DNA of 36,026 nt from Methanoculleus methanifontis (GTDB lineage Archaea > Halobacteriota > Methanomicrobia > Methanomicrobiales > Methanoculleaceae): assembly GCF_030464365.1 (NCBI RefSeq), contig NZ_VCYI01000020.1, forward strand, positions 1 to 36,026, written 5' to 3'. Both the position numbers and the translations under genes were made by a program. The notes under the pieces are model-generated. The model saw nothing but the letters and a program-made list of their open reading frames with translations. It was not told the DNA's origin and did not search any database. Positions within the stretch are counted from its first letter, which is position 1, and the number at the start of each line of letters is the position of its first letter. Below are positions 17,040 to 36,026 of this stretch, in pieces.

Positions 17040-19925
17040 TCACCGCACCCCCGCCCGCCCGTTCCACTCCCGGACGAGCCTTGCGTAGCACCCCTCGCAG
17101 ATATTCGTCCGTGCCTCCCGCGAGCGGTAGACCGCCTTCAACTCCTTGCAGACGTCGCACCGGCCGAGGTCGACCTTTGTCCGTTCGAACATCCGGTGGT
17201 CGAGGACCCCGGGGAGCGGCTGCGCCTTCGATCGCTTTGCTTTCTTGAGGCAATCATAGCAGAGGTACTCTCCCCCGCCCCGTCTCACCGACGACGTCGG
17301 CCGCTTGCCGCAGACGTGGCAGGGCTCGTCCTTTGCGGCCGGGAGGGGGATGTAGTCCGCGGGGTTGATGGTGGCAGCAGTGGCAGCACGTTGGCAGCAG
17401 CTGCTGCCAATGAGTGCACCCGCATTCGGGCCTGGAACTGCATTTCCGGCATGATGTACAGGGTTCACCGGTTCATTGGCAGCAGTGCGGAAAACACAGG
17501 CACCCCGGTCGTCATCGGAAGTAGCCTCGCCGGTGCTCTCCGTTCTCTCATTCTGCTGTACATATAGGTACATACATTGATCTCTATCCGGCTCCTGGTC
17601 GCCGTTTCCTGGATCCTCCCCGCTCTGCCCGATCTCTTGTTGGCAGCAACTGCTGCCACTCTGCTGCAACCTGCTGCCATTGCTGCCAACGTCAGGATCG
17701 TCATCCAGCCAGACGGAGGTCCCCCCGCGCCACTGCCGGTAGACCTCGGCGTCGAACGTGAAGTACTGCTCCCGGCGGCGGACCGTGACCCCGTACTCGC
17801 TGTCCTCCGTCACGGTGGCGTCGTAGAGGCTGATCGCCGGGCACTTCTCCAGGAGGCCGGAGTAGGGTGTCCCCCGGCTGACGTAGCCGTTGAGGAGCCG
17901 CCGGGTCTGGTAGTAGGAGAGGCCGAGGGCGCTCTGGAGGTGCCGGACGGTGAAGACCTCGACTCCCATCCGGGCGACGGTTTCGAGCGCCGCCGCCTCG
18001 TTCTTTGTCAGTTTGGTCTCCTGGCCCCCGGCTTCGCCGTTGATGGCGGTATAGAGTTTTGCGGCCGCCGCGAAGTCCTCCTCCCGGGCGATCACCGCCC
18101 CGTCGTCGTCCCGGTCGCGCTGGAGGTAAAAGAGCCGGGCCCGGCACTTGATCAGGTCAAAGAGCATCCCGGGGTTCCGGCGGTTCTGGGTTGTGGAGGA
18201 CTGGATTCGCCGGGCAAACGGGATCCGGACGGGGAGGACCTCGGTTTTGACGGTCTCCCAGATCGCCCGGCAGGTGAGGACGTCGTCTTCGGCCGAGGGT
18301 CGACCGACCGCCTCGACCTCCTTCATGTGGTCGAAGACTCGCTTATCTTGCTCGACGGTATCGTCGATCCAGACCGTGAGCATCCGGTTCATCACCTGAT
18401 CGTCGCCGAGATCCTCGACCTTTGCGAGCCACCAGACGCACCGCTCGGGGATGGTGCAGACCCGGAGTTTGCGCTCGGTCGTGAGGGTCCTATGCTCGAT
18501 CGGCTCGCGGAAGTTCGCGGTCGCGGATTTGAGGACTTCCTGGAGGTCGTCGGAGAGCGAGACGTCGTCGAAGAGGAGGACGGTCCCGGGCCGGAGGTCG
18601 TCGTCGTAGTAGAGCGCTTTGTCCGAGACGGTGCCCTTGAGTTTGTAGGCGTCAGGGATGAGGTTCTGCATCGTTACGCAGGCATGGGTTTTGCCCTTCC
18701 CGGAGTTCCCGGAGACAGCGACATGGAGGCCGTTCGTGTTCTCGACCGATTGCGAGGCAAGGGACATCACCAGGCACTCGGCGACGGTCCGGTCGCCGAC
18801 GTGGGCGTTGTTGAAGGTCTCGAGGAAGAACGTGAGCGGGTCGCCGTCGCGGAGGATCTGGATAGCTCGTTCATAGTGTTCGTCGACGGGAGGAGGGGTT
18901 GGTGGCTTCTCCTCCACGGTTGTCTTCTCTGGAGTGCGGGTTCGCTTTTGCTCATGCATCCCCCGGAGTTCGGGCCAGCGCTGGGCGCCGCCGCCGCAGG
19001 TCTGGTGGTGGCAGCCGGCGAAGATCGCGCCGTTCGCGAACTGGATGGCAAACGCGCCGTCCTTGTGCGCCGAGGAGAAGGGGCACTCCGTGAGGGTGAA
19101 GAGGGTCCCGCCCTGCCAGGGCCGTGTGTTCCGGACGGCGATTCCGTGCTCCGCGAGCCAGGCAGCAAGGTCGATGCCGGGGCTCTTTTTACTCTGCGGA
19201 GGCTCCTTCTGGAGGAGGAGCCCGGCGAGGTGCTCCAGGCGTTCTCGCGGGACGACACTGACTTCGTCCGGTACGGCGAGCAGCCTCGCCCGCCGGTGCG
19301 GCCGCTCCGGCGTGTTGTCGCCCTTCCTCGATGTGGTACCGTAGAGTTTCCAGATCCGGGCGGCGTTGTGGTTCGCGGTGTCGACGGTGACGGTCTCATT
19401 CGAGAAGAGGGCGTCAAGGGCCACAAGAGCCCCCTTGACAACCTCTGTTGCCGCCTCGTCGTTCGGGAGGTCCACCCGGTAGAGGAGGTGGGCGCCGTTC
19501 CCGGAGTCGGCTTTGATGGGCGCGGGAAACCCCTGCTCGGCGAGGTATGCCGCGATCCTTTCTGCGGCAGCGAGCGCCGCGTCGTGCTCGGCGTCGGTCG
19601 ACGAGACCCCGCTCGGCCGAACGGGGTCGATGTCGACCGGGAACCAGCGCCGGCGGAGGATGTCGGCGTCGGCGGTGGTGGCGTCTTTTCTTCCGAGGCG
19701 CATCTTGATCCGGTTCGCCCGGCGGGCGAGGAGCGCCGGGTTGACGGCGTTTAAGGTGACGTAGATCCCGGCGACCGCCGGGTCGGCGTCGAGCGCCTCG
19801 ACCTGCTCTGCGAGCAGGGTGTGGTCATCGAAGTACCCTGAATGGGTGGCGCCGTCGGCGAGCGCCCGGACCTCGATTACGCCGTCGGCGAGGAGTTCCA
19901 CCGCCCGGCGGATCTCCTCACTCAT
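17040..19925 (-). CDS. Replicative primase-polymerase/helicase (PrimPol with P-loop ATPase)
   Basis: 961 aa. Residues about 50-215 are an archaeo-eukaryotic primase-polymerase domain: metal-binding PVDIDP (D98, D100), GNGAHLLYR (H146) and RIWKLYGTTSRKGD. Residues about 281-310 hold a zinc finger like CHC2 primases (C281, H287, C305, C310). A P-loop ATPase follows: Walker A GNSGKGKT (about 406-413) and Walker B VLLFDDVSL (about 449-457). Next come a winged helix (VRHLQSALGLSYYQTRRLL), a Gln/Cys/Ser-rich linker whose DNA carries TGGCAGCA iterons, and two CxxC zinc knuckle pairs at the C-terminus. Such proteins replicate plasmids and viruses of archaea. The start overlaps the gene before it by 8 nt. 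Confidence 0.88.
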   Translation of the reverse strand: MSEEIRRAVELLADGVIEVRALADGATHSGYFDDHTLLAEQVEALDADPAVAGIYVTLNAVNPALLARRANRIKMRLGRKDATTADADILRRRWFPVDIDPVRPSGVSSTDAEHDAALAAAERIAAYLAEQGFPAPIKADSGNGAHLLYRVDLPNDEAATEVVKGALVALDALFSNETVTVDTANHNAARIWKLYGTTSRKGDNTPERPHRRARLLAVPDEVSVVPRERLEHLAGLLLQKEPPQSKKSPGIDLAAWLAEHGIAVRNTRPWQGGTLFTLTECPFSSAHKDGAFAIQFANGAIFAGCHHQTCGGGAQRWPELRGMHEQKRTRTPEKTTVEEKPPTPPPVDEHYERAIQILRDGDPLTFFLETFNNAHVGDRTVAECLVMSLASQSVENTNGLHVAVSGNSGKGKTHACVTMQNLIPDAYKLKGTVSDKALYYDDDLRPGTVLLFDDVSLSDDLQEVLKSATANFREPIEHRTLTTERKLRVCTIPERCVWWLAKVEDLGDDQVMNRMLTVWIDDTVEQDKRVFDHMKEVEAVGRPSAEDDVLTCRAIWETVKTEVLPVRIPFARRIQSSTTQNRRNPGMLFDLIKCRARLFYLQRDRDDDGAVIAREEDFAAAAKLYTAINGEAGGQETKLTKNEAAALETVARMGVEVFTVRHLQSALGLSYYQTRRLLNGYVSRGTPYSGLLEKCPAISLYDATVTEDSEYGVTVRRREQYFTFDAEVYRQWRGGTSVWLDDDPDVGSNGSRLQQSGSSCCQQEIGQSGEDPGNGDQEPDRDQCMYLYVQQNERTESTGEATSDDDRGACVFRTAANEPVNPVHHAGNAVPGPNAGALIGSSCCQRAATAATINPADYIPLPAAKDEPCHVCGKRPTSSVRRGGGEYLCYDCLKKAKRSKAQPLPGVLDHRMFERTKVDLGRCDVCKELKAVYRSREARTNICEGCYARLVREWNGRAGVR
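17372..17688. repeat. TGGCAGCA iterons within the primase gene
   Basis: Nine exact copies of TGGCAGCA or its complement lie at 17372, 17381, 17392, 17402, 17477, 17641, 17651, 17672 and 17681. 17391-17410 is a perfect 20-bp palindrome made of two head-to-head copies. They are read in more than one frame (SCCQQ, QRAATAA), so they are not just a protein repeat. They could be initiator-binding sites. Confidence 0.65.
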
Positions 19926-20310
19926 AGAGGTCCACCCCGGTAAGGGGAAAGAGGGGGGCGCTCGCGGCCTCCCCGCGGGCGACGCGCCGGAAGGAGACGA
20001 GCGGGACGATCCAGGATCCGGCGCGGAGGTGGATCACCACCGCTCTTCCGGCCGGGTTGACCGCGGCGTGCCCCTCGATTGTTATCGCGCCTATCGGGAC
20101 GCCGCGCTCGTGCCGCACCCGCTCCCGCACGACCGGCACCGGCCGACCGGCAAAGATCAGGCTTCTGACATCTTCCGGCGCGATCCGGCAGCGCTCCGCC
20201 TCGACGTGGACGATGAGCCCGCCCGCGAGTCGAAAACCTTCGGTTTTCTCCTGCTCCGGCCCATCGGCCCATCGCACGGTGCAGGCGAGGGTTCCCGCTT
20301 CCGGCGTCAT
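19918..20310 (-). CDS. Small replicon protein A
   Basis: 130 aa, probably an OB- or beta-rich small protein (VPIGAITIEGHAAVNPAGRA, AVVIHLRAGSWIVPLV); function unknown. It sits between protein B and the primase, overlapping B by 4 nt and the primase by 8 nt, so it is part of the replication operon; single-strand DNA binding or an accessory role would fit but is unproven. A decayed homologue lies at 34494-34860. Compared with it, residues about 20-32 (QEKTEGFRLAGG region) are an in-frame insertion that encodes a REP-like palindrome. Confidence 0.7.
   Translation of the reverse strand: MTPEAGTLACTVRWADGPEQEKTEGFRLAGGLIVHVEAERCRIAPEDVRSLIFAGRPVPVVRERVRHERGVPIGAITIEGHAAVNPAGRAVVIHLRAGSWIVPLVSFRRVARGEAASAPLFPLTGVDLYE
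20222..20260. repeat. REP-like palindrome inserted in frame in gene A
   Basis: GAAAACC-TTC-GGTTTTC (20232-20248) with GAG/CTCC-type flanks, the same design as the repeats elsewhere in the window. The decayed homologue of the gene at 34790-34810 goes straight from the codons before to the codons after, without about 39 nt. So the insertion, or its loss, keeps the reading frame. Confidence 0.65.
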
Positions 20311-20600
20311 GGCCGCCCTCGCTCGACGTTTATTGAATACTGGTGGTTGCGGGTCCTTCTGACGTTGATCTCGCGGACGGCTCTCCCGTGGTGCCGGATC
20401 GCGTCCGCCACCGCCCGCGGGACAAGGAAGAGGGGGACCGGGGAGACGTTTATCTCCTCCGGTGAGGATGTACCAGTGGCGGCCTGGCGGAGCGCGTGGT
20501 GGCACTTCTTGTCCGGGCTGCCGCCGCTGGTGTTCGGTTCGGTTCTTCTGGTGTGCTGCATTTCTGATAGCTCCCTGCACCGGGACTCGCTCCGGCGCAT
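20307..20600 (-). CDS. Small replicon protein B
   Basis: 97 aa from ATG 20600, or 84 aa from the internal ATG with GGGAG 9-10 nt upstream (near 20561). The C-terminal part (VADAIRHHGRAVREINVRRT) resembles a small DNA-binding or structural protein; no family is recognised. It is the first gene of the B-A-primase operon and overlaps A by 4 nt. A decayed homologue (DGIRRYGRTVREIHVHR) lies at 34865-34965. Confidence 0.6.
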   Translation of the reverse strand: MRRSESRCRELSEMQHTRRTEPNTSGGSPDKKCHHALRQAATGTSSPEEINVSPVPLFLVPRAVADAIRHHGRAVREINVRRTRNHQYSINVERGRP

Positions 20601-20754: not shown

Positions 20755-21912
20755 TCAGGATCCGTTCGGGATTTTGCAGGTCTGGTCCGGCGATCTGCAG
20801 GCGGCGGCCACGTCCCCGGCATCGTAGCGGAGCCGGACCTCCCGCCCCCGGCCCGTCCGGGGCACAAGATCGACGATCCCGGCCTTTGCAAGGGCGTTGA
20901 GGTGCTCGTGGTAGGCTGTCTTCCCGACCGGGAGGTACTCCTGTGCCGCTTCAAAGACCGCCCCCGACGCCATATCCGCCCCGTCGCGGGACCGTTCCGC
21001 GATCCAGCGGGCGAGCGCCCGCTCGCCCGCCGAGAGCCCCGCTGCCCGGTTCCGGAGGGCCGGCGCCGTGACCGCCCGGGCTGCTGCGGTGACGTCGGCG
21101 TGGGTGACCCGGCGGCGGCCGTCCTTCTCCGCCCGGTGGGCTGCTTGCCGGACGAGGTCGATCCCGACCCGGACGTCCTGTTCGCCGGCGGCGAACCGCG
21201 CGATCCGGTCGAGGAGCGGCTTCGGCAGCACCCGGGGATAGAGACCCTGCCGGACGCGGTCGGCGAGGATCTCGCGGACCTCGGCCTTTGTGTAGGGCAG
21301 GAAGGTGATCTCGGTCGGGTGGAAGACCGACCGGACGCTTGAGTCGGCCTCGGCTCCGAGGTTCAGGTCAAGGTCGCTCGTGACCGCGAAGACCCCGGCC
21401 TTCCGGACGTCCCACTTCTCGTAGAGCCGGAGGATCTGGTAGAGGAGGGGGTTGTAGGTCCCGGCCACTATGAGGTCGTCGGCGTCGTCGAGGCAGACGA
21501 CGAGCGCGGCGTTACGATCCCGGAGCCGGGAGACGATCCCCTCTTTGACATCGTCGAGGTGCCAGCCGGTCGGGGGCGGGGCGTAGCCGCAGACCTGCTT
21601 GAAGATGCTCCCGTAGACGGCGAGCGGGGTGTGGTCCTGCCGGCAGTTGACATAGGCCGGGATGATCCTCTGCGTCTCCTCCCGGATCATGGTAAAGATC
21701 CGGTGGACGGTGGTGGTCTTCCCGGTCCCGGGCGGGCCGCGGAGGATGGCGGAGAGGGCGCTCCCGCCCCGGAGGGCCGGGCTGATGAGGAAGGCGAGTT
21801 CTTTGACCTGGGCGTCGCGGTGGTGGAGGTGCTCGGGGACGAACGTGAGTTCGAAGACGTCGGGATCTCTGAAGAGGGTCTGGTCACTGCGGAGAAGGGG
21901 CGAGTGCGTCAT
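20755..21912 (-). CDS. cdc6: Orc1/Cdc6-type replication initiator ATPase
   Basis: 385 aa AAA+ protein. Walker A GPPGTGKTT (about 59-67), Walker B ALVVCLDDADD (about 136-146), sensor 1 FAVTSDLDLN, sensor 2 region GEQDVRVGIDLVRQA, and a C-terminal winged helix (SGAVFEAAQEYLPVGKTAYH, LNALAKAGIVDLVPR). This is the domain order and length of archaeal Orc1/Cdc6, which bind origin boxes and load the MCM helicase. ATG 21912 is chosen since the truncated copy at 11119 starts at the same codon. It lies between the 168-aa gene and the B-A-primase genes, so it is probably the element's own initiator rather than the chromosomal one. Confidence 0.9.
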   Translation of the reverse strand: MTHSPLLRSDQTLFRDPDVFELTFVPEHLHHRDAQVKELAFLISPALRGGSALSAILRGPPGTGKTTTVHRIFTMIREETQRIIPAYVNCRQDHTPLAVYGSIFKQVCGYAPPPTGWHLDDVKEGIVSRLRDRNAALVVCLDDADDLIVAGTYNPLLYQILRLYEKWDVRKAGVFAVTSDLDLNLGAEADSSVRSVFHPTEITFLPYTKAEVREILADRVRQGLYPRVLPKPLLDRIARFAAGEQDVRVGIDLVRQAAHRAEKDGRRRVTHADVTAAARAVTAPALRNRAAGLSAGERALARWIAERSRDGADMASGAVFEAAQEYLPVGKTAYHEHLNALAKAGIVDLVPRTGRGREVRLRYDAGDVAAACRSPDQTCKIPNGS

Positions 21913-21989
21913 AGGAGAGACTGGAGAAGAGGTAGTAGATAACAAGGAGCCGTGCGCGGTCTGAAAGTGAAGGGGAAAGAGTCCCCGCT

Positions 21990-22496
21990 TCACTCGAGCG
22001 ACGCGATGCCGTCGGCCCAGGACTCGACCGCATCGCGGATTGCGTCGTCCTGGTAGGACGAGAGCCGGACGGTCTTCCGGGTGAAGGTGACGTAGTAGTC
22101 TTCACCGGCGGGGTCGTGGCACTTGAGCTGAGCGTAGTAGGTCTCGTGGGGCTCGTCGCGGACGGCCTCGCCGCCCATCGCCGTCGCGAGGGCGGCGTTG
22201 CCCATCACGGCCGCTGCGTTCGCGTTAAACGCGGCGATCGTCGGGGACTGGAGCGAGACGGTGCCCACCCGCTTGCCCTCGCCGTCGAGGAAGTTCACCT
22301 TCGCGGTGTAGTGCTCGCGGTTCCGGATGACCGGATCGACGGGGACGCCATCAGAGCCGGTATACCCGACGCACCCGAAGGGGTTGTCCTCGATGACGCT
22401 CTCGATGAGGTTGTTAAACGACGTTACGGTGGCGATCGGGACGGCGAGGTCCCGGACCGCCGTTCTGTTCACGGTTGTCTGCACGAAATCTGCCAT
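21990..22496 (-). CDS. Conserved 168-aa protein of the replicon module (copy 2)
   Basis: 168 aa, unknown function, paralogue of the protein at 11198-11704. The N-terminus (MADFVQTTVNRTAVRDLAVP) and the C-terminal third (YYVTFTRKTVRLSSYQDDAI) are almost unchanged between the copies; the middle varies. No membrane helix or signal peptide. It is followed after 77 nt by cdc6 on the same strand and preceded by the conserved 60-bp promoter block, so it is likely the first gene of the replicon transcript. Constant length with varied middle would fit a structural or dosage protein, but nothing seen decides this. Confidence 0.75.
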   Translation of the reverse strand: MADFVQTTVNRTAVRDLAVPIATVTSFNNLIESVIEDNPFGCVGYTGSDGVPVDPVIRNREHYTAKVNFLDGEGKRVGTVSLQSPTIAAFNANAAAVMGNAALATAMGGEAVRDEPHETYYAQLKCHDPAGEDYYVTFTRKTVRLSSYQDDAIRDAVESWADGIASLE

Positions 22497-25848: not shown

Positions 25849-26970
25849 TTACCTATCATTGTGGTTTATTCGAGATTTTGCCACCAGACAACCTGTGAAC
25901 ATGAGTTCAGTTCCGACATCCGGAATCCTAACATCGCCATCCTCCGAGAAATACGTAGAACAGAACCAGTTGTGGTAACAGGCCAACCAGAGATACTTTC
26001 GAAAGATCGCAGGATTGTCCTTAAACTCCGCCAACCGTTTCTTGATATGATCTCTATGCTGATGAAGTTCAGAGATCGCTGCGGGAAAGTAAGGTCCTTC
26101 AGATACAGGGAGTTTTTCACCATAGCGTTCCATCATGCCCATCATATCATCACTGAACCACCTGAGGACGTACAAATAGTTGATAAACCATGTGCCGTCA
26201 GGATCGATGACGACCATATCATTAAAGTGACAAAATGCCGGGGCACGATACCACTCTAGATATCTTAGGAGTTTTTCTTTAGCAGAACTCTCAAGGATGA
26301 TCCGGGGAAAATAGGCGTTTTTTTCAATACCTTCCGCATCTGCGAGAGCTGGACTAAACACAGTCACCTCATCGCAGTAACATCTCTCTAAAACGATACC
26401 TCCCCGAACAAAATACCCTCTTATAGCCAGTTCTAACTGATACATCGCGATCTCATCGAGTGCCCGCCCAAAATCCGGTTCACCTTCAGTTTGATTCTCC
26501 AGTTCAGAGATAAACAATAAGTTATCGGTATATACGCGCACATGACAGATACGCCTCCAGTTGAACTTGTGCCTCCTCTCTGTCATTGATTTGATACTGG
26601 AAAATGCGGATCTCAGGGCACTATGATAGTGGTTAAGCACTTCATCGAACTTGGACTCGCTTTTTTTGGCCTCAGTGAGCAATGACTTAAATCCAAGGAT
26701 ATCCACATGGGCAATAACAGATTCTTTGCCGAAGACAGGTATGATTCCCTTTAATCCCTCAATAAAGACTTTCTCTGGGATCCCACCCTGACAAAGAGCA
26801 GACCGGAGGATGGCTCCATGGACTTTAGTTCTGTTGGGAATTGTGATCACTATACTGTCATCAGCATGTCTGAGGTGAATATAGCGATCACTTCTTTGCA
26901 TCTCAGAATAATCAAATTCCCGCAATAGATCGATTACCGTCTGAAGAGGTAAGTCAGGAAGCCGCGACAT
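25849..26970 (-). CDS. HicA-like domain fused to a nucleotidyl cyclase-like domain
   Basis: 373 aa. Residues 1-75 follow the HicA pattern: LPLQTVIDLLREFDY, then RSDRYIHLRHAD where HicA has GSHxxM, then IPNRTKVHGAILRSALCQGG and VFIEGL. The usual GSH is replaced by SDRYIH, so RNase activity is uncertain. Residues about 85-230 look like a class III cyclase fold: AHVDILGFKSLL (D90), VRVYTDNLLFIS (D149), RGGIVLERCYCDEVTVFSPA and YFPRIILESSAKEKL. The last 140 residues are unassigned. Only 3 nt separate it from the HicB-like gene before it. It may make or bind a nucleotide signal; this is inference. Confidence 0.65.
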   Translation of the reverse strand: MSRLPDLPLQTVIDLLREFDYSEMQRSDRYIHLRHADDSIVITIPNRTKVHGAILRSALCQGGIPEKVFIEGLKGIIPVFGKESVIAHVDILGFKSLLTEAKKSESKFDEVLNHYHSALRSAFSSIKSMTERRHKFNWRRICHVRVYTDNLLFISELENQTEGEPDFGRALDEIAMYQLELAIRGYFVRGGIVLERCYCDEVTVFSPALADAEGIEKNAYFPRIILESSAKEKLLRYLEWYRAPAFCHFNDMVVIDPDGTWFINYLYVLRWFSDDMMGMMERYGEKLPVSEGPYFPAAISELHQHRDHIKKRLAEFKDNPAIFRKYLWLACYHNWFCSTYFSEDGDVRIPDVGTELMFTGCLVAKSRINHNDR

Positions 26971-26973
26971 CAG

Positions 26974-27243
26974 TTATCTCCCACATTGTTCCCGGAGTGC
27001 TCGATCAAAATCTCTCATCTGCTCTAAGATGCTTTTGACAGCACTGATATGCTCTCTGATCGCTTGCTTTAAATTTTCAACCGCCTCAGCCTCTGTAGAA
27101 CCCACTTCTGTCATATGGGTAAGATAATCAACCGCGACAAAGCAATCGGCATCTCTCGATATCCAGATCAGATCATTGAACACACGATCGATTGCTTCGA
27201 AATCCGACAAACGATCCATGCTTTCCTCATTGTTCAGGGTCAT
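26974..27243 (-). CDS. HicB-like antitoxin of the HicA-cyclase fusion
   Basis: 89 aa. The core DCFVAVDYLTHMTEVGSTEA followed by AVENLKQAIREHISAVK is the HicB pattern (a strand pair with the Gly-x-Thr turn, then the EAxxNLKxAI helix). The N-terminal about 30 residues are extra. The gene lies 57 nt downstream of the STAND NTPase gene and 3 nt upstream of the fusion gene on the same strand. It most likely binds the HicA-like domain of its partner. Confidence 0.75.
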   Translation of the reverse strand: MTLNNEESMDRLSDFEAIDRVFNDLIWISRDADCFVAVDYLTHMTEVGSTEAEAVENLKQAIREHISAVKSILEQMRDFDRALREQCGR

Positions 27244-27300
27244 AGTACACCTTTTTTAAGCAGGTTAAACAGTCTATGTTTCATCTGCACCCTCTCGATG

Positions 27301-30300
27301 CTACCTCTCCACAAGATCCTCTTCATATTCCATTTTTACACTCTGAATCTCAGCATCAACCCCTTGTAACGCCTCGCGAAGAACTGCCCGGAGGCTTCCC
27401 GGGGGTGCAAAGCTCAATAAACGGGAAATGGCCTCTTTTTTGCGCTCAAGTTCAGGTGAATGGCCGCCCATGAACGTGATTACATCATACCGGATGTATC
27501 CACCAAATAGTCTCCTGAGATCATCTCTTTTACCAGCGGCAATCGCATCACCCAGGATCTTGAGGATGGTTCCCTCGGTTCCGGGTTGGGAGAGGAGGAC
27601 GGAGCAGAGGAACAGGGCGTCATTCACCTTACCTCCACCCAGCAGGTGCTCGGCATACTCTTCAAGGCATAACTTTCCTGACACCTGGTGTTTCAAAGAT
27701 GCAATTGATCTCAATTGAACAGAGAGTTGCTCACGATATATGAGTCTCTCGTTCATAAGAGTGAACAGTTCATCAAGGATAGGCTCTAATTCAGCGCACT
27801 CTTTTACGTTCATCAAAAATGAAACCCCATTCAGAGGAAGTATCTGGTAATTACGTGCATTTCGCTTCCTCTCAGCCCTTTGGCGGATAAAATCCAGAAT
27901 ATCCTCTTTCTCGGTGAGAATGTAATTTATTAACGTCTGAACATGATGTTCAGGACCGTTCCCAAGCGAAGAAGTAGCGATTAGTTTCTCCTTGAAGCAA
28001 CTTTTGATTGACTCTTTCTGATGGCTATCCAGACGGTCTTCATTCTCTTTCAGATCGTGTAATACATACGTAGCAATAAGATCAAGGAGTTTTTCATCCA
28101 TCGTCTCGTAGTAGCTCAAGATATCCAGATAGGACGTTACGCAGATCTCGTAATTCTCAAGGCGGGAGGAAAACAACCATAGATTATAGAGAAGTGTCAG
28201 GTGGATCTCTCTTTCACCAGTATCGATCAGTTTGGTCAGCCAATCTCTGACTCTAGCCTCATCTGGAGGATACCTTGTCATGAGCCATATAAAGCGCTCT
28301 ATTCTTCTGGAGTCTACGTGTTGAGAAGCAACCAGCACTTCACCCGCAAAGGAATCTAATTGTTCTGGATCATGAGTGCACAGCCCGAGATCAATGGCAT
28401 TTTTGAATCCGATCGGCAGCTCGCTCCAGGTATGCTCCCGATCGCGCAATTCGAAGAATATGTCTGGATCCTTCGCGATCCAGGCAGACAATAGAGAGTC
28501 CAACAGGTGATAGTTGATATTTGCATGCTCCTGGTACGCCTGAAGGTCCTGGAGCAGGGTGATGACTGAACTAGCATCCGGGTATGTGGTAGAGAGGAAA
28601 CTCAAGATAGGTTCACTAAATTCGGTAAATATATTCTCTGGAATTGCAAAACCAAGTTTCACGCCTGAACACCACTTACGCCTCTCCTCCTCGCCCGAAG
28701 GTATCGTCTCCGGGTTGAATGAGAGGAGCAGCGGTCTCGAGTAGAATAAAAATCCATAGATGATATACTCCATGGGACGCGGAAACGCCTTTAAAATTGA
28801 CTCAGCATCTTCCGTACCTGAAACTTTGTACTCCCACCACCGGAAGAGGAGACTCTCGATATTGCATAATACCCCATAGTCAGTCTCACGCGGGATTAAC
28901 TGCTCGAGTTCCGCTAAAATGATCCTCCGCTCCTCTGCAATCCTCTCTGAGAGTGAGAATTCTCCATCTCCAAACTTAGATCCGATCTTCCCGGAGGTCT
29001 CAACAGCCTTTCTTCTTACATGCACTGATTGATGGCAAAGCACCCTCTTTAGTATCGAGATTGCGTGTTCCCGGGTTTCAAGGACAGCAGGAGTGGCTGG
29101 AAGTGGTCGTACATCCCTGGTTATCGTGTAAGGCGATGATAGGTAACTTATCTCATGGTCTGCTCTCAGTGCCTCTGAGAGGGCCTTCCCAAGCGCAACG
29201 ATGGAAAATTCGTTCTCCGCGTCAAGCCTACTCTCTAGTAGAGTCAATGTTTCACGTATCTTATCAAGTGTATTGTAAAAAGGAGAGACGGTCTCAGTGA
29301 CCATGGATTCCACCATATAATTAGAGTACTGTCCACTAGGGACATTTTTATAGATGTGCTCAAGGAGATCGAATATCTCTTCCCGTGAGAACCCAGCATG
29401 GATCAGACGAATCACTACAGTTCCGTAGGTATCCTGAGTCGGAGACAGGATAGCATCATCTTCGTCTCCGGGAGGGGGAGTGTCGATATAGGTGTACATG
29501 AGGTCGATCGACTCTTCAGGAACCTGATAGCAGAACTTGGAGAGAGCCTCCAGACACTCTGTCCGGTGATAGCCCGAGAGATCTTTCGACTCTGCAATGG
29601 CTTTACGGATCCACGAGGCGAAGTAATCCTTAATGACATCTTCTTCACAGAACCCTGAAGCCGCCTCAAGATTTGTAAGAATTTTGTCATTAAAACGTGG
29701 TTCCCAAGACTCTATCCACTCGCTCAACGCGTCAAAGTTACGGATCTGATCAATGTAGTGCGCAAGGTAGAGATCGCCCTTCATATCCGGATTGAACCTT
29801 ATCGAGTAACCAACCTCCCTGAGGACGCCATTTTTTACCATCTGATCGATCTGGGCCTGTATTGTCTCTTCAGTAAGACCAAATTTCCCCTTTAGCAGCG
29901 AGAGGACAGCCCTATCGTTTCGCCTAAAAGGCCCTATCAGCGCAAGACCCGCCAGAAGTTCACCAACTCTTCCTTTATCGAATTCCGGTATGAGCGATCG
30001 GGTGGTCTCAAACTCCAGATCATCAGCGAATTTTCGCCGCAGTCTTTCAACTGTAATCCCTGGGTCTCCGTTGATGATATTTCCAGCCCAGACGATGAGA
30101 TAGGGATTCGGGAGCATCGAAACAATCAGTCCCTCCTTATTATGGTGTCTGCCACCGAGAACAAACCGTAACAGTTCTCTGAGGTCATCCTCGCTCCTAT
30201 TTCCGATCCTAATCTCTTCAGTCAGATCTTGGCAAAACTGTTCGTTAAGAACGGTCTGGATGCCTCGTAGGCCCGCAGTTCGTGTTGTGAGGATTATCTT

Positions 30301-31248
30301 CACGTTCGAAGACTGATATTTTACATACGCAAAGAGTGGAGCGAACTCCTTATGCCATCTGTCTGCATCGTCAAATAGCAGGAGATATCGTCTGTCGCCA
30401 TCCAACTCGCCCGGGAGGGCACTCTCCAGGTTCGGGTAACCTGGTGTTACTGAGAGTATGATATACTCTGGATGCCTTTCTTCGAGATCGAACGCGATCT
30501 GACGGAGCAGGTGTGATTTTCCAGACCCGCCCGGAGCATGGAGAACAAGGATTTTATTGTGGTTGTCAGCCAAGAACTCCTTTACTATATTCAGGTAGTA
30601 CCCAGTCTGCTTTAACCGGGGTCCTGTATCCAGGGGCATTAAATGCTGTTCAACGCGACTGAAATATTCCTGCCACCGGATGAATTTCTGAATTTGACCG
30701 CCTGTAGAGCGCTCAGCGGATCGCTGGAGTTCCTCTATCCCCACTTTGATCTCCCTGTGCTCCTCCTTTTCCTCCTTGCGCTGCAATACACGGAGACGTT
30801 CAATCGAGACAGGATTTCCTTCTCTTGCTTTTACAGAGAGAAAAGATTTGAATGCTGATTTCAGCACATTAAACAACCAACGGGCAAATTCAGGATTTCG
30901 AACTTCAGAATCCGGAATATAGCCTTCAAACGCTGCAACAAACTTTTCTTTAAGTTCAGACAGGCTCTTATCATTCTCTTCGAAGACTTGCTCTAGAATG
31001 AGTGGCACTATATCAGAAGGAAAGAACTTAGCTAGGACCGCAAGATTGGGAACAGGTTCTGGAGGTGTTTCAGAGCGTACCTTCTTGTCAACGAATTCCG
31101 CAAAGTCGGAGGATCTCATCCAGTCGCTGATGTCTTTCTCACGAAACGCATTCGCACCGAATTTTTTAGCCCATTCTATCAGTGCCGCAGCTATGAGGCT
31201 ACCCATTATCCCCTCAATCATCCATGCCCACCATGAATGATCTATCAT
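27301..31248 (-). CDS. Membrane-anchored STAND-type NTPase with repeat C-terminus
   Basis: 1315 aa. An N-terminal helix (about residues 6-27) can anchor it in the membrane. Residues about 238-246 are Walker A (APGGSGKSH), 287-295 Walker B (YLLLFDDAD), and KIILTTRTAG (about 315-324) a sensor motif; a winged-helix region follows (FGLTEETIQAQIDQMVKNGV). The remaining about 800 residues are helical with HEAT-like repeats (QSVHVRRKAVETSGKIG). This is the plan of STAND ATPases, many of which are phage sensors whose C-terminal repeats bind a viral protein. The N-terminal effector here is only a membrane helix plus about 190 residues of unknown fold. It is AT-richer than the replicon genes and heads a likely operon with hicB and the HicA-cyclase fusion. 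Confidence 0.78.
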   Translation of the reverse strand: MIDHSWWAWMIEGIMGSLIAAALIEWAKKFGANAFREKDISDWMRSSDFAEFVDKKVRSETPPEPVPNLAVLAKFFPSDIVPLILEQVFEENDKSLSELKEKFVAAFEGYIPDSEVRNPEFARWLFNVLKSAFKSFLSVKAREGNPVSIERLRVLQRKEEKEEHREIKVGIEELQRSAERSTGGQIQKFIRWQEYFSRVEQHLMPLDTGPRLKQTGYYLNIVKEFLADNHNKILVLHAPGGSGKSHLLRQIAFDLEERHPEYIILSVTPGYPNLESALPGELDGDRRYLLLFDDADRWHKEFAPLFAYVKYQSSNVKIILTTRTAGLRGIQTVLNEQFCQDLTEEIRIGNRSEDDLRELLRFVLGGRHHNKEGLIVSMLPNPYLIVWAGNIINGDPGITVERLRRKFADDLEFETTRSLIPEFDKGRVGELLAGLALIGPFRRNDRAVLSLLKGKFGLTEETIQAQIDQMVKNGVLREVGYSIRFNPDMKGDLYLAHYIDQIRNFDALSEWIESWEPRFNDKILTNLEAASGFCEEDVIKDYFASWIRKAIAESKDLSGYHRTECLEALSKFCYQVPEESIDLMYTYIDTPPPGDEDDAILSPTQDTYGTVVIRLIHAGFSREEIFDLLEHIYKNVPSGQYSNYMVESMVTETVSPFYNTLDKIRETLTLLESRLDAENEFSIVALGKALSEALRADHEISYLSSPYTITRDVRPLPATPAVLETREHAISILKRVLCHQSVHVRRKAVETSGKIGSKFGDGEFSLSERIAEERRIILAELEQLIPRETDYGVLCNIESLLFRWWEYKVSGTEDAESILKAFPRPMEYIIYGFLFYSRPLLLSFNPETIPSGEEERRKWCSGVKLGFAIPENIFTEFSEPILSFLSTTYPDASSVITLLQDLQAYQEHANINYHLLDSLLSAWIAKDPDIFFELRDREHTWSELPIGFKNAIDLGLCTHDPEQLDSFAGEVLVASQHVDSRRIERFIWLMTRYPPDEARVRDWLTKLIDTGEREIHLTLLYNLWLFSSRLENYEICVTSYLDILSYYETMDEKLLDLIATYVLHDLKENEDRLDSHQKESIKSCFKEKLIATSSLGNGPEHHVQTLINYILTEKEDILDFIRQRAERKRNARNYQILPLNGVSFLMNVKECAELEPILDELFTLMNERLIYREQLSVQLRSIASLKHQVSGKLCLEEYAEHLLGGGKVNDALFLCSVLLSQPGTEGTILKILGDAIAAGKRDDLRRLFGGYIRYDVITFMGGHSPELERKKEAISRLLSFAPPGSLRAVLREALQGVDAEIQSVKMEYEEDLVER

Positions 31249-31505
31249 TATTAGAGCAGTATGAAATACGTTCGTACTCAGAATAGTCGCCCAGCAAAGG
31301 TCTGGAACGATTTAGTGTCATGCAACTCAAGCAAGAACGAACTCATAGAGTGAAAAGTACTGGATGAGAGCGTTAAATCTAGACAGGCATTTCTCAAATC
31401 ATTCCTGGCAATTACGTCCATATGGTCGAAGGATAAAGAGAATTAAATGGATAAATTGAAGTGTTCCAAACTCTACTCAAAGGTTAAGCAAGGGATTGTA
31501 TCGGT
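31249..31505. other. Divergent promoter region between STAND NTPase and PIN genes
   Basis: 257 nt, AT-rich, no gene supported on either strand. It must hold both divergent promoters; I see several A/T-rich stretches but none that clearly outranks the others as TATA box. Confidence 0.4.
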
Positions 31506-32744
31506 ATGACAAAAATATTCATAGATACTAATATATTTCTAGGACTTTATGAATCAAATGAAGACACAATTGAGATTTTTAAAGATATTGAAAAAGTTAA
31601 AGATAAATCGGTCTTTCCACGTCAAGTATACGATGAGTTTCTTCGGAATCGAGATCAGAAATTACGCAGGCTAAAATCCAATATAAAAACAAACTACAAA
31701 ATTGAGATACATCCAACGTCATTGGTCCGATCTTCTACAGAATATAATCAACTTGAAAAGATCAAAGAGGATTGCATTAAAATAAAAAAATCTCTAATTC
31801 AGAAAATTGAGGAAATGATCGTTGATAGTTCAAAAGACCCTATTTTCAGCCAATTCATTCAGTTGTATAATAGCGCAAGTGTCATGAAAATCGAGAGAAG
31901 TGATGCTTTAATTCAAAAGGCGTTTTTCAGGAAACTAACTGGGAATCCACCAATAAGTTCAAAAAAAGATTCACTCGGGGATGGAATCATTTGGGAGTCA
32001 CTGTTGGAACATGTTACAGACGACTTGATCCTAATTTCTCGGGATGGGGATTTTAAAGATTATTCAACATTCCTTATTGATGAATATCGAAGCAAGACAG
32101 AAAAATCTCTATTTATTGTTGAAACTCTATCTGAGGCCTTGAAATCTGTTGGGGAGGAGCCTTCAGACAAATTGGTTCAATTTGAAGAAGAACAAAAAAA
32201 GCGAATCCTATATGTGGCTACCGATTTGAGCGATACTCTTGAAGGATTAAACAGTTTAGCTAGAGCAATAGATAGGTCGCATATTGCAGGCTTAAGTAGC
32301 CTAGCCGAAGAAGTAAATAAGTCATATGTGGCAAGCCTAGGTAGCATAGATGAAGCAACTGAGAGATGGAACAGTTTAGCCAGAGCAATAGATTGGTCAC
32401 ATTTTGCAGGCTTAAGTAGCCTAGCCGAAGAAGTAAATAAGTCATATGTGGCAAGCCTAGGTAGCGTAGCTGAAACAGCTGCGAGATGGAACAGTCTAGC
32501 CAGAGCAATGGATATATCACCTTTTATGAGGCAGAGTGACATGGTTGAGAGACTACTGGATAGCCCATCTAGGAATTTAAACTACCTGTCCACAGGGTAT
32601 GATTCTGAGACTAGCGAATGGCTTGAAGGAGACGTAAACGAAAATCAAGAAGAGAGTGCTCCAGACGAATCTTCTCAGAAAAAAGACTACACCACCGAAG
32701 AAACTCAAGTTGAAACTAAGGCGGATAAAGATATAGAACAATAG
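31506..32744 (+). CDS. PIN-domain ribonuclease-like protein with tandem C-terminal repeats
   Basis: 412 aa. PIN-domain acidic residues are visible: FIDTNIF (D7), VYDEFLRN (E44), DSLGDGIIWESL (D155, D159) and LISRDGDF (D180, D182), as in the DUF4935 group. PIN proteins are Mg-dependent RNases and often toxins. Residues about 247-345 hold a 40-residue repeat (NSLARAID, then GLSSLAEEVNKSYVASLGS) in two full and one partial copy, and the tail is acidic and Gln/Glu-rich. Codon use is strongly AT-rich, unlike the GC-rich flanks, so transfer is likely. No antitoxin-sized neighbour is coupled to it. Confidence 0.82.
   Translation: MTKIFIDTNIFLGLYESNEDTIEIFKDIEKVKDKSVFPRQVYDEFLRNRDQKLRRLKSNIKTNYKIEIHPTSLVRSSTEYNQLEKIKEDCIKIKKSLIQKIEEMIVDSSKDPIFSQFIQLYNSASVMKIERSDALIQKAFFRKLTGNPPISSKKDSLGDGIIWESLLEHVTDDLILISRDGDFKDYSTFLIDEYRSKTEKSLFIVETLSEALKSVGEEPSDKLVQFEEEQKKRILYVATDLSDTLEGLNSLARAIDRSHIAGLSSLAEEVNKSYVASLGSIDEATERWNSLARAIDWSHFAGLSSLAEEVNKSYVASLGSVAETAARWNSLARAMDISPFMRQSDMVERLLDSPSRNLNYLSTGYDSETSEWLEGDVNENQEESAPDESSQKKDYTTEETQVETKADKDIEQ
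32252..32520 (+). repeat. 120-bp tandem repeat in the PIN gene
   Basis: Two full copies and one partial copy with a period of exactly 120 bp; the core at 32288-32346 is nearly identical to 32408-32466. Near identity at DNA level means recent expansion. Each unit encodes 40 residues. Confidence 0.85.
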
Positions 32745-32770
32745 ACTTCCAGAGTTCCGGTGGAGCTTAA

Positions 32771-32820
32771 CCTCGTCGACATTCTTTGAATCTCCGATTC
32801 CAGCGATAGTGTTGACGAGG
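32771..32820. repeat. Inverted repeat after the PIN gene
   Basis: CCTCGTCGAC (32771-32780) and GTTGACGAGG (32811-32820) pair at 9 of 10 positions around a 30-nt loop. It could be a transcript end or the mark of a lost element. Confidence 0.4.
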
Positions 32821-32871
32821 GTTTATCCTCATCGTCGCATCTGCAAAATAAAGTAGTAAAGTCAATCTTGA

Positions 32872-33246
32872 TTGGATGTAGTTTTTGGAGCCAGTCCTCG
32901 GGCGTTAAACTCTAAAATTGCTGATTATATCGTGCGAAGTTGTTCAATAGCATACTGTTCCGGCGACATACCATTAAATATTCCTCAGAGGTACCCGATC
33001 CTAACGAGTGACGCTATTGACGCTTTGGGAAAATTTCAGACCAGAAATCGGGATCCGCGGGAAGGATTCGAAACGTTATGCAATCAGTTGTTTGAACGCT
33101 GGTGCATGCGCGAGTACCGCGATACGGTCCACCAAATCCATATTGTCAACGGAGCCGGGGGAGATGGGGGTGTCGAAGCATACGCAATAAGTGAGAGCAC
33201 CTATCGGGAGGGGTTTCTAACACCTCTAGCATTCAGAAACCCCTAA
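32872..33246 (+). pseudogene. Fragment of a restriction endonuclease-like protein
   Basis: The open frame encodes FQTRNRDPREGFETLCNQLF and then VNGAGGDGGVEAYA, the pattern of the start of a PD-(D/E)XK Mrr-like domain (GDGGV motif with the first acidic residue). The frame ends about 25 residues later, before the E-x-K motif, so the catalytic domain is cut. A TTG start at 32872 is the only one available and the N-terminal part may not be native. Confidence 0.5.
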
Positions 33247-34974: not shown

Positions 34975-35130
34975 TACCGGATCACCTCATCCCGCCCGTT
35001 CCACCCCCGGACGAGCCTTGCGTACCACGGATCACAGGGGTCTCCAACGAGCGGTAGAGCCCTCGCCGCAGACATGCCGGGTTCGACCTTCGTCCGGTGG
35101 TCGAGGGCTCCGGGCAGAGACTCTTGCAAC
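34975..35130 (-). pseudogene. Relic of the primase C-terminus (third copy)
   Basis: LPGALDHRTKVEPG and YARLVRGWNGRDE match the last part of the PrimPol-helicase (LPGVLDHRMFERTKV, YARLVREWNGRAGV). The zinc knuckles between are largely lost. It directly follows the B relic, an order opposite to the intact operon, where A and B lie beyond the primase N-terminus. So the relic comes from a rearranged or tandem copy. Confidence 0.75.
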
Positions 35131-35358: not shown

Positions 35359-36026
35359 TCATTCCTTCTGCATGGTCAAATACCTTCTTCCGGTGACCCA
35401 CTCCTCGTTGATGTCCATCAGGATGGATCCGACCAGCCGGAGGAGGGATTCCTCGTTCGGGAACGCTCCTACGACCTTGGTCCTTCGTTTGAGTTCCTTA
35501 TTGACCCGTTCCATCATGTTCGTTGTTCGGATCCGCTTTCCGTGCTGTTTTGGGAATGCCGTGTAACTCATGAGCCCGGGGAGGAATCGTTCGATGGTGT
35601 TTGCGGCTTTTCGGTATCCCCGGGCATTCAGGTCATCAGCGAGATCCTGGAGTCTCTGCTCATTCCCATAGGCCTCCTTCAGCCCCTCTACAACCTCCTT
35701 CTGGTGTTTCCGGGGAATATTCCTCAAGACGGCTCGGGTACAATGAACCTGACACATCTGCCAGGATGCACCGAGGAAGGCGGCTTCAGCCGCCTTCTGG
35801 ATGCCGGTATGCCCATCCGAGATGACCAGTTGAACCCCGGCAAGTCCTCGTTCTTTGAGGTCCTCGAAGAGTCCCGACCAGAATTCTTCATTCTCACAGT
35901 CGGTGACTCTCGCGCCCAAGATCTCCCGGTAACCATCCTCGCGCACTCCGGCGACCACCAGGACCGCCTTGGTGACGTACCGTGCTCCGTCCCGGATTTT
36001 GTAGTAGGAAGCATCCACGAAGAGAT
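35359..36026 (-). mobile_element. IS256-family (Mutator-like) transposase, partial
   Basis: The last about 220 residues of an IS256-type DDE transposase; the N-terminus is beyond the window edge. Seen: VDASYYKIRDG (first Asp), LVISDGHTGIQKAAEAAF (second Asp), CQVHCTRAVLRNIP (the C-x2-H block typical of the family), and NMMERVNKELKRRTKV (catalytic Glu). The visible frame is intact, so the element may be active. Its insertion next to replicon relics fits a region of repeated insertion and loss. Confidence 0.92.

Follow-up and report, generated by a model that had tools for sequence, protein, structure and literature searches.

Organization of the locus

The window (the whole stretch of DNA that was analyzed, 36,026 nucleotides) contains a gene coding for P0001, a protein in which a primase, an AAA+ ATPase, a winged helix-turn-helix (wHTH) domain, and a zinc-ribbon region are combined. 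An array of short repeats lies within this gene, and two small conserved genes and an Orc1/Cdc6-type gene are found next to it (Table 1).

Table 1. Positions of the genes, domains, and repeat sites discussed in the text.
Feature	Position	Strand	Remarks
Primase / AAA+ ATPase / wHTH / zinc-ribbon gene (P0001, 961 aa)	17040-19925	-	Open frame; contains the array
wHTH domain, residues 640-735	17721-18008	-	Proposed reader of the array; AlphaFold model, mean pLDDT 82; winged-helix element order
Recognition helix, residues 671-679	17889-17915	-	Tracks the word, as does the following loop
Codon of residue 672	17910-17912	-	Tracks word bases 2-3
Codon of residue 683 (Ser)	17877-17879	-	Tracks word base 6
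Codon of residue 723 (second wing strand)	17757-17759	-	Tracks word bases 2-3
C-terminal zinc-ribbon region, Cys872 to Cys946	17088-17312	-	Keeps the frame open through the array
Array	17372-17688		Nine exact TGGCAGCA sites in both orientations; read as iterons and probable origin
Arm 1 (5' in the gene)	17641-17688		Steps of ~10 bp; layout as in 29/43 arrays
Arm 1 sites	17681-17688(-), 17672-17679(-), 17651-17658(-), 17641-17648(+)		Exact copies
Arm 1 degenerate site	17662-17669	-	Reads TTGCAGCA
Single middle site	17477-17484	+	Exact copy; register +205 of the shared layout
Stretch between the arms	17530-17610		Candidate unwinding region; ~50-53% GC vs 65-70% nearby
Arm 2	17372-17410		Contains the 20-bp palindrome TTGGCAGCAGCTGCTGCCAA (17391-17410)
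Arm 2 sites	17402-17409(-), 17392-17399(+), 17381-17388(+), 17372-17379(+)		Exact copies
orf130	19918-20310	-	Conserved partner of unknown function; 8-bp overlap with the primase start; homologues beside 59/66 arrays
orf97	20307-20600	-	Conserved partner of unknown function; homologues beside 61/66 arrays
Orc1/Cdc6-type gene	20755-21993	-	NCBIfam/Pfam matches; linked in part of the family only

The best matches of the N-terminal fold of P0001 were all archaeo-eukaryotic primase (AEP) proteins, namely RepB' (E=1.3e-3), PrimPolC, LigD, and CAPP, and LigD_Prim-Pol was a weak Pfam match in one homologue. The prim-pol part is followed by a P-loop ATPase part (GNSGKGKTH) with weak AAA matches in homologues; this part was poorly modelled, and its helicase class is unsettled. 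In Foldseek, the top matches of the wHTH were TFIIE and MarR-type winged helices, all of them weak (E > 1e-3). The linker between the wHTH and the zinc ribbons is poorly conserved. Cysteines 872, 889, 923, 926, 943, and 946 are invariant in an alignment of the 961-aa protein comprising 12 homologues, in which invariant motifs were found. No match of the primase to O-type initiators was obtained in Pfam, NCBIfam, or PHROG, and Rfam gave no match.

Elsewhere in the window, a segment at 34992-35117(-) resembles the C-terminal zinc ribbon of the primase (43% identity) and lies close to a Mutator-family transposase at 35359-36018. The stretch 26000-33000 is low in GC (0.38-0.48) and contains genes for a STAND NTPase (27301-31248) and for a PIN-domain protein (31506-32744); HD/dGTPase-like and DarG-like genes occur to its left, and the region is possibly a defence island.

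The repeat array within the primase gene

The sequence-only reading had reported nine exact copies of an 8-mer (TGGCAGCA, or TGCTGCCA on the opposite strand) in both orientations and in different reading frames, together with a perfect 20-bp palindrome, and all of this was confirmed. The copies occupy more than one reading frame of the primase ORF, in the linker between its conserved regions, and a near copy of the palindrome lies at 17640-17659. The claim that chance is unlikely also held, as shuffles of the whole 36 kb gave an expectation of 0.68 copies and a maximum of 3, against 9 in the array. Only a tenth copy (13693) is found in the window outside the array. The genome-wide count that had been suggested as a check showed the 8-mer to be rare elsewhere: the 2.61 Mb genome holds 63 copies, 9 of them within the 317 bp of the array and ~54 outside it.

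Genome-wide, the arrangement TGGCAGCA-NN-TGCTGCCA is present three times, twice in the array and once on another contig (C27). The latter contig carries, near 17862 (L003 1500-1760), a decayed linker copy of the primase gene with six TGACAGCA and one TGGCAGCA palindrome. The genome has thus held elements with two words.

Arrays in homologous genes

Matches to the primase gene were found in 129 of 199 Methanomicrobiales genomes, often several in each. The 3' parts (tails) of 94 distinct homologues were surveyed, and 74 of them carry an array in the same linker, but with differing words. A word of the form TNNCANC is repeated in 66 tails (codon-shuffle p<=0.01) and another 8-mer in 8 further tails, while by these two tests no array was detected in the remaining 20. 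The words include TGGCAGCA, TGACAGCA, TTTCAGCA, TTACAGCA, TTGCAGCA, TTGCAACA, TTGCACC, TTTCATC, and others. The word is uniform inside one array and different between lineages, and the copies again lie in both orientations and several frames. Changes that extend to every copy of an array, whatever its orientation and frame, indicate selection on the DNA. As judged from these sequence comparisons, the array is thus selected as DNA and not as peptide.

The outcome that would have refuted the sequence-only reading, a conserved protein repeat with varied DNA, was not met: homologues keep the DNA repeat, and the word changes in all copies. The idea that the repeats are a low-complexity peptide repeat, with DNA similarity as a by-product of codon use, draws on the poor conservation of the linker and its richness in S, Q, C, and N. 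However, the residues altered by one and the same word change depend on the frame, and the repeat counts were not reproduced by codon shuffles. Together with the two orientations and several frames, these results refute the peptide reading, to which we assign practically no probability.

The sites also share a layout. A common register (0+, 9+, 19+, 30+, 41-, 205-, 279+, 290-, 301-, 311-) was recognized in 29 of 43 well-filled arrays, with 192 of 300 sites matched against 92.5 expected. In these 29 arrays the sites form two mirrored arms with steps of 8-11 bp, and the helix-phase spacing criterion of iteron origins is met. The TTGCAAC group has a layout of its own. Over the 43 arrays, the mean GC content reached a minimum of 0.45 at +80 to +140, compared with 0.66 in the gene core, and the corresponding value in the window was ~0.50. 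In most pairs of related copies, only ~3.2-3.7 kb are common, comprising the orf97-orf130-primase unit, and the surroundings are unrelated, as expected of a replication module.

Two homologues (L110 and L111) have arrays of 14 and 17 sites through an in-frame repeat of ~153 bp, which makes a natural series of iteron numbers. In L008, L010, L013, and L016, the first zinc ribbon is absent from the 3' end of the primase gene, and cysteines encoded by the array (VCTHVCTPLC etc.) are found near its place. Only some lineages have a GGAACGGAGAGC piece midway through the linker.

Co-evolution of the word and the wHTH domain

When words and proteins were aligned, the recognition helix and the loop that follows it were found to track the word. 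Among 676 columns outside the linker, residue 672 ranked first in covariation with bases 2-3, and for base 6 the top column was residue 683. Co-change was then evaluated on a tree of residues 1-620. Of the 13 branches on which residue 683 changes, 12 also show a change of base 6, which changes on 15 branches in all (p=2e-13, rank 1 of 453 columns). Bases 2-3 share 12 branches with residue 672 (p=2.5e-7) and 11 with the wing residue 723 (p=1e-7), while the tree-based test gave no co-change for the cross pairs 672/base 6 and 683/bases 2-3. With other trees, and after thinning to <90% identity, 683 was still first (p 2e-11 to 7e-15), and 672 ranked first to fourth, with a weakest p of 0.005. These p-values treat branches as independent and carry no correction for the number of columns; residue 683 survives any such correction, and residues 672 and 723 do so in most trees.

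A residue-to-word rule was written down before 60 further regions were examined, and 16 loci with both an array and a prediction formed the held-out set. The rule gave the exact word for 11 of the 16, two of which had a choice of two words, compared with a mean of 3.0 under permutation (p=5e-5). Base 6 was correct in 15 and bases 2-3 in 12. The rule for bases 2-3 is ambiguous for residues YQ, which allow GG or TG. The misses were L267/L268, which have a distant helix, L265, and the broken genes L223 and L247. Since the held-out set includes relatives of training loci, what was tested is the rule rather than independence from phylogeny.

The same covariation could arise from linkage without any contact if the wHTH and the array were swapped as one cassette. 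The wHTH adjoins the array, and further wHTH columns also co-change with the word, more weakly. Linkage predicts that all variable wHTH columns behave alike, whereas here single residues dominate and are divided by base, 683 with base 6 only and 672 with bases 2-3 only; moreover, held-out words were predicted by the residue rule. We therefore regard cassette exchange as very unlikely.

The sequence-only reading had named the Cdc6 and PrimPol proteins as candidate binders. The second of these is supported, in the form of the primase's own wHTH, by covariation and co-change; the first is not. An origin bound by the neighboring Orc1/Cdc6 protein would fit the position of that gene upstream in the same gene cluster. 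However, a Cdc6 gene was found upstream of only 16 of 66 arrays and is missing there in 28 arrays for which enough sequence was available, and none of its 102 columns co-changed with the word beyond p=0.035. An archaeal Orc1/Cdc6 origin (ORB) calls for such a gene to be linked to the repeats and to match them, and on these data that criterion is not fulfilled. Cdc6 was accordingly rejected as the binder, and an Orc1/Cdc6 origin at the array seems extremely improbable. The products of orf97 and orf130 are encoded by near-constant neighbors of the array, but they were rejected as well, no column co-changing with the word beyond p ~0.02. Taken together, the word co-evolves with defined wHTH residues, and the evidence supports the primase's own wHTH as the reader, although binding is indicated by co-evolution only.

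Probable role of the array in replication

We interpret the array as iterons bound by the wHTH of the protein encoded around it and, most likely, as the replication origin of the element, with a probability of about 0.82. Several independent tests support selection on the array as DNA and co-evolution of its word with wHTH residues; physical binding, DNA opening, and use as an origin are inferred. In the proposed mechanism, the primase-helicase would be produced from its operon, and its wHTH would bind 9-11 helically phased sites, arranged in two mirrored arms, within the gene itself (codons 746-852); the stretch between the arms, with its lower G+C content, might then open. One archaeal gene would in that case be a complete replicator, with primase, ATPase, DNA reader, and an origin in spacer codons, and word and reader would have diversified together across the methanogen order by a simple code, in which residue 683 specifies base 6 and residues 672 and 723 specify bases 2-3. 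We consider this wider proposal reasonably likely, with less confidence than the origin itself.

The same pair of protein and array might instead serve regulation, copy-number control (handcuffing), or partition, with the origin located elsewhere. Covariation is evidence that the DNA is recognized, but not of what this serves; the two mirrored arms could form a loop or bring copies together in pairs, and the size of the array varies, as in the homologues with 14 and 17 sites. On the other hand, the partner is a primase-ATPase and not a partition protein, and the center between the arms is richer in AT. Word density was 10 per kb in the tails, 0.15 upstream of the operon, and 0.06 downstream of the gene, with 0.12 expected; the lack of enrichment on either side makes promoter control unlikely, and autoregulation through the promoter was rejected. 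A role other than origin thus remains possible but improbable, and we favor the origin reading. A GC-skew analysis, which had been suggested as a check for an origin, lent it no support, as no switch was found at the array. No plasmid or phage record with a full-length relative was found, and autonomous replication is thus undocumented.

Incompatibility, in the sense of co-resident copies carrying different words, was also considered and rejected: the word is the same in 22 of the 51 pairs of copies within a genome, where permutation gave a mean of 21.6, and no avoidance was detected.

These results locate a probable origin, and name its reader, for a large and little-studied family of mobile elements of methanogens. 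They place in an unrelated primase-helicase of archaea the arrangement known from phage lambda, where the origin forms part of the initiator gene. Words and their matched readers make up a natural series that offers a recognition code for a winged helix, ready-made and open to testing, and the elements are candidate replicons of distinct specificity for methanogens.

Comparison with known replication systems

In phage lambda, the iterons bound by the initiator O lie within the O gene, in ori-lambda with its AT-rich part, and the protein becomes longer when iterons are added (PMC7466680, PMC4488673, PMC5043065). The array is similar to lambda and its lambdoid relatives in having repeats inside the initiator's own coding sequence, although recognition is deduced here from covariation only. 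Lambda O recruits primase and helicase. It is a dimeric initiator that has neither activity itself, whereas P0001 is a primase-helicase, and no sequence relation was found. Furthermore, lambda has four 19-bp inverted-repeat iterons, while more than 10 words occur here, in an archaeal host. By analogy, the archaeal array would work like a lambda-type origin in an initiator gene, but it does not belong to the lambda family. For archaea, the open-access literature that was searched gave no account of an origin within its own initiator gene, most subscription papers lying outside the search.

In iteron plasmids such as P1, RK2, pSC101, and R6K, the iterons lie in non-coding DNA. Their origins are helix-phased arrays of initiator sites beside AT-rich DNA, mostly direct repeats (PMC5043065). 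The present arrays are likewise helix-phased; they differ in using both orientations and in lying within a coding sequence. The satellite initiators P4 alpha and SaPI Rep/Pri join or link initiator, helicase, and primase functions and are directed to their own origin (PMC7145576); they are like P0001 in these combined functions, and no sequence relation was found.

Among archaeal proteins, ORF904 of pRN1 combines a primase, an SF3 helicase, and a wHTH, and the origin adjoins the gene (PMC4234260). It resembles P0001 in joining prim-pol, ATPase, and wHTH in one replication protein. However, pRN1 has as its putative origin a 100-nt stem-loop that lacks iterons and lies past the stop codon (PMC4234260), and thus outside the gene, while the iteron array here is inside it. 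Proteins of the two kinds are placed in different arCOGs (PMC4158269). In the integrated elements of arCOG07809, with Mpal_2033 of Methanosphaerula palustris, a single protein unites primase, helicase, HTH, and Zn finger, and iterons are not mentioned in that report (PMC4158269). This architecture matches P0001, as judged from the published description and not from an arCOG profile, with the helicase class unsettled.

Arrays in distant relatives

Distant relatives from IMG/VR have only the primase domain in common with P0001 by the profiles used. The idea that a C-terminal extension engulfed an array once located 3' of the gene is therefore no more than conjecture. Two of these contigs, L030 (ORF nt 2095-2258) and L036 (ORF nt 2540-2696), have arrays inside their primase genes, with the unrelated words CCGCTAAC and CCGTCACC and ~41-48% identity in the primase domain. 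In other distant relatives, arrays (ATGGATAC, AGTGTCGA, CCGTACAA, AGGTTACA) lie beside the primase gene and not within it, directly past the stop codon in L027, L082, L071, and L072, and ~500-850 bp upstream in several of L039-L051.
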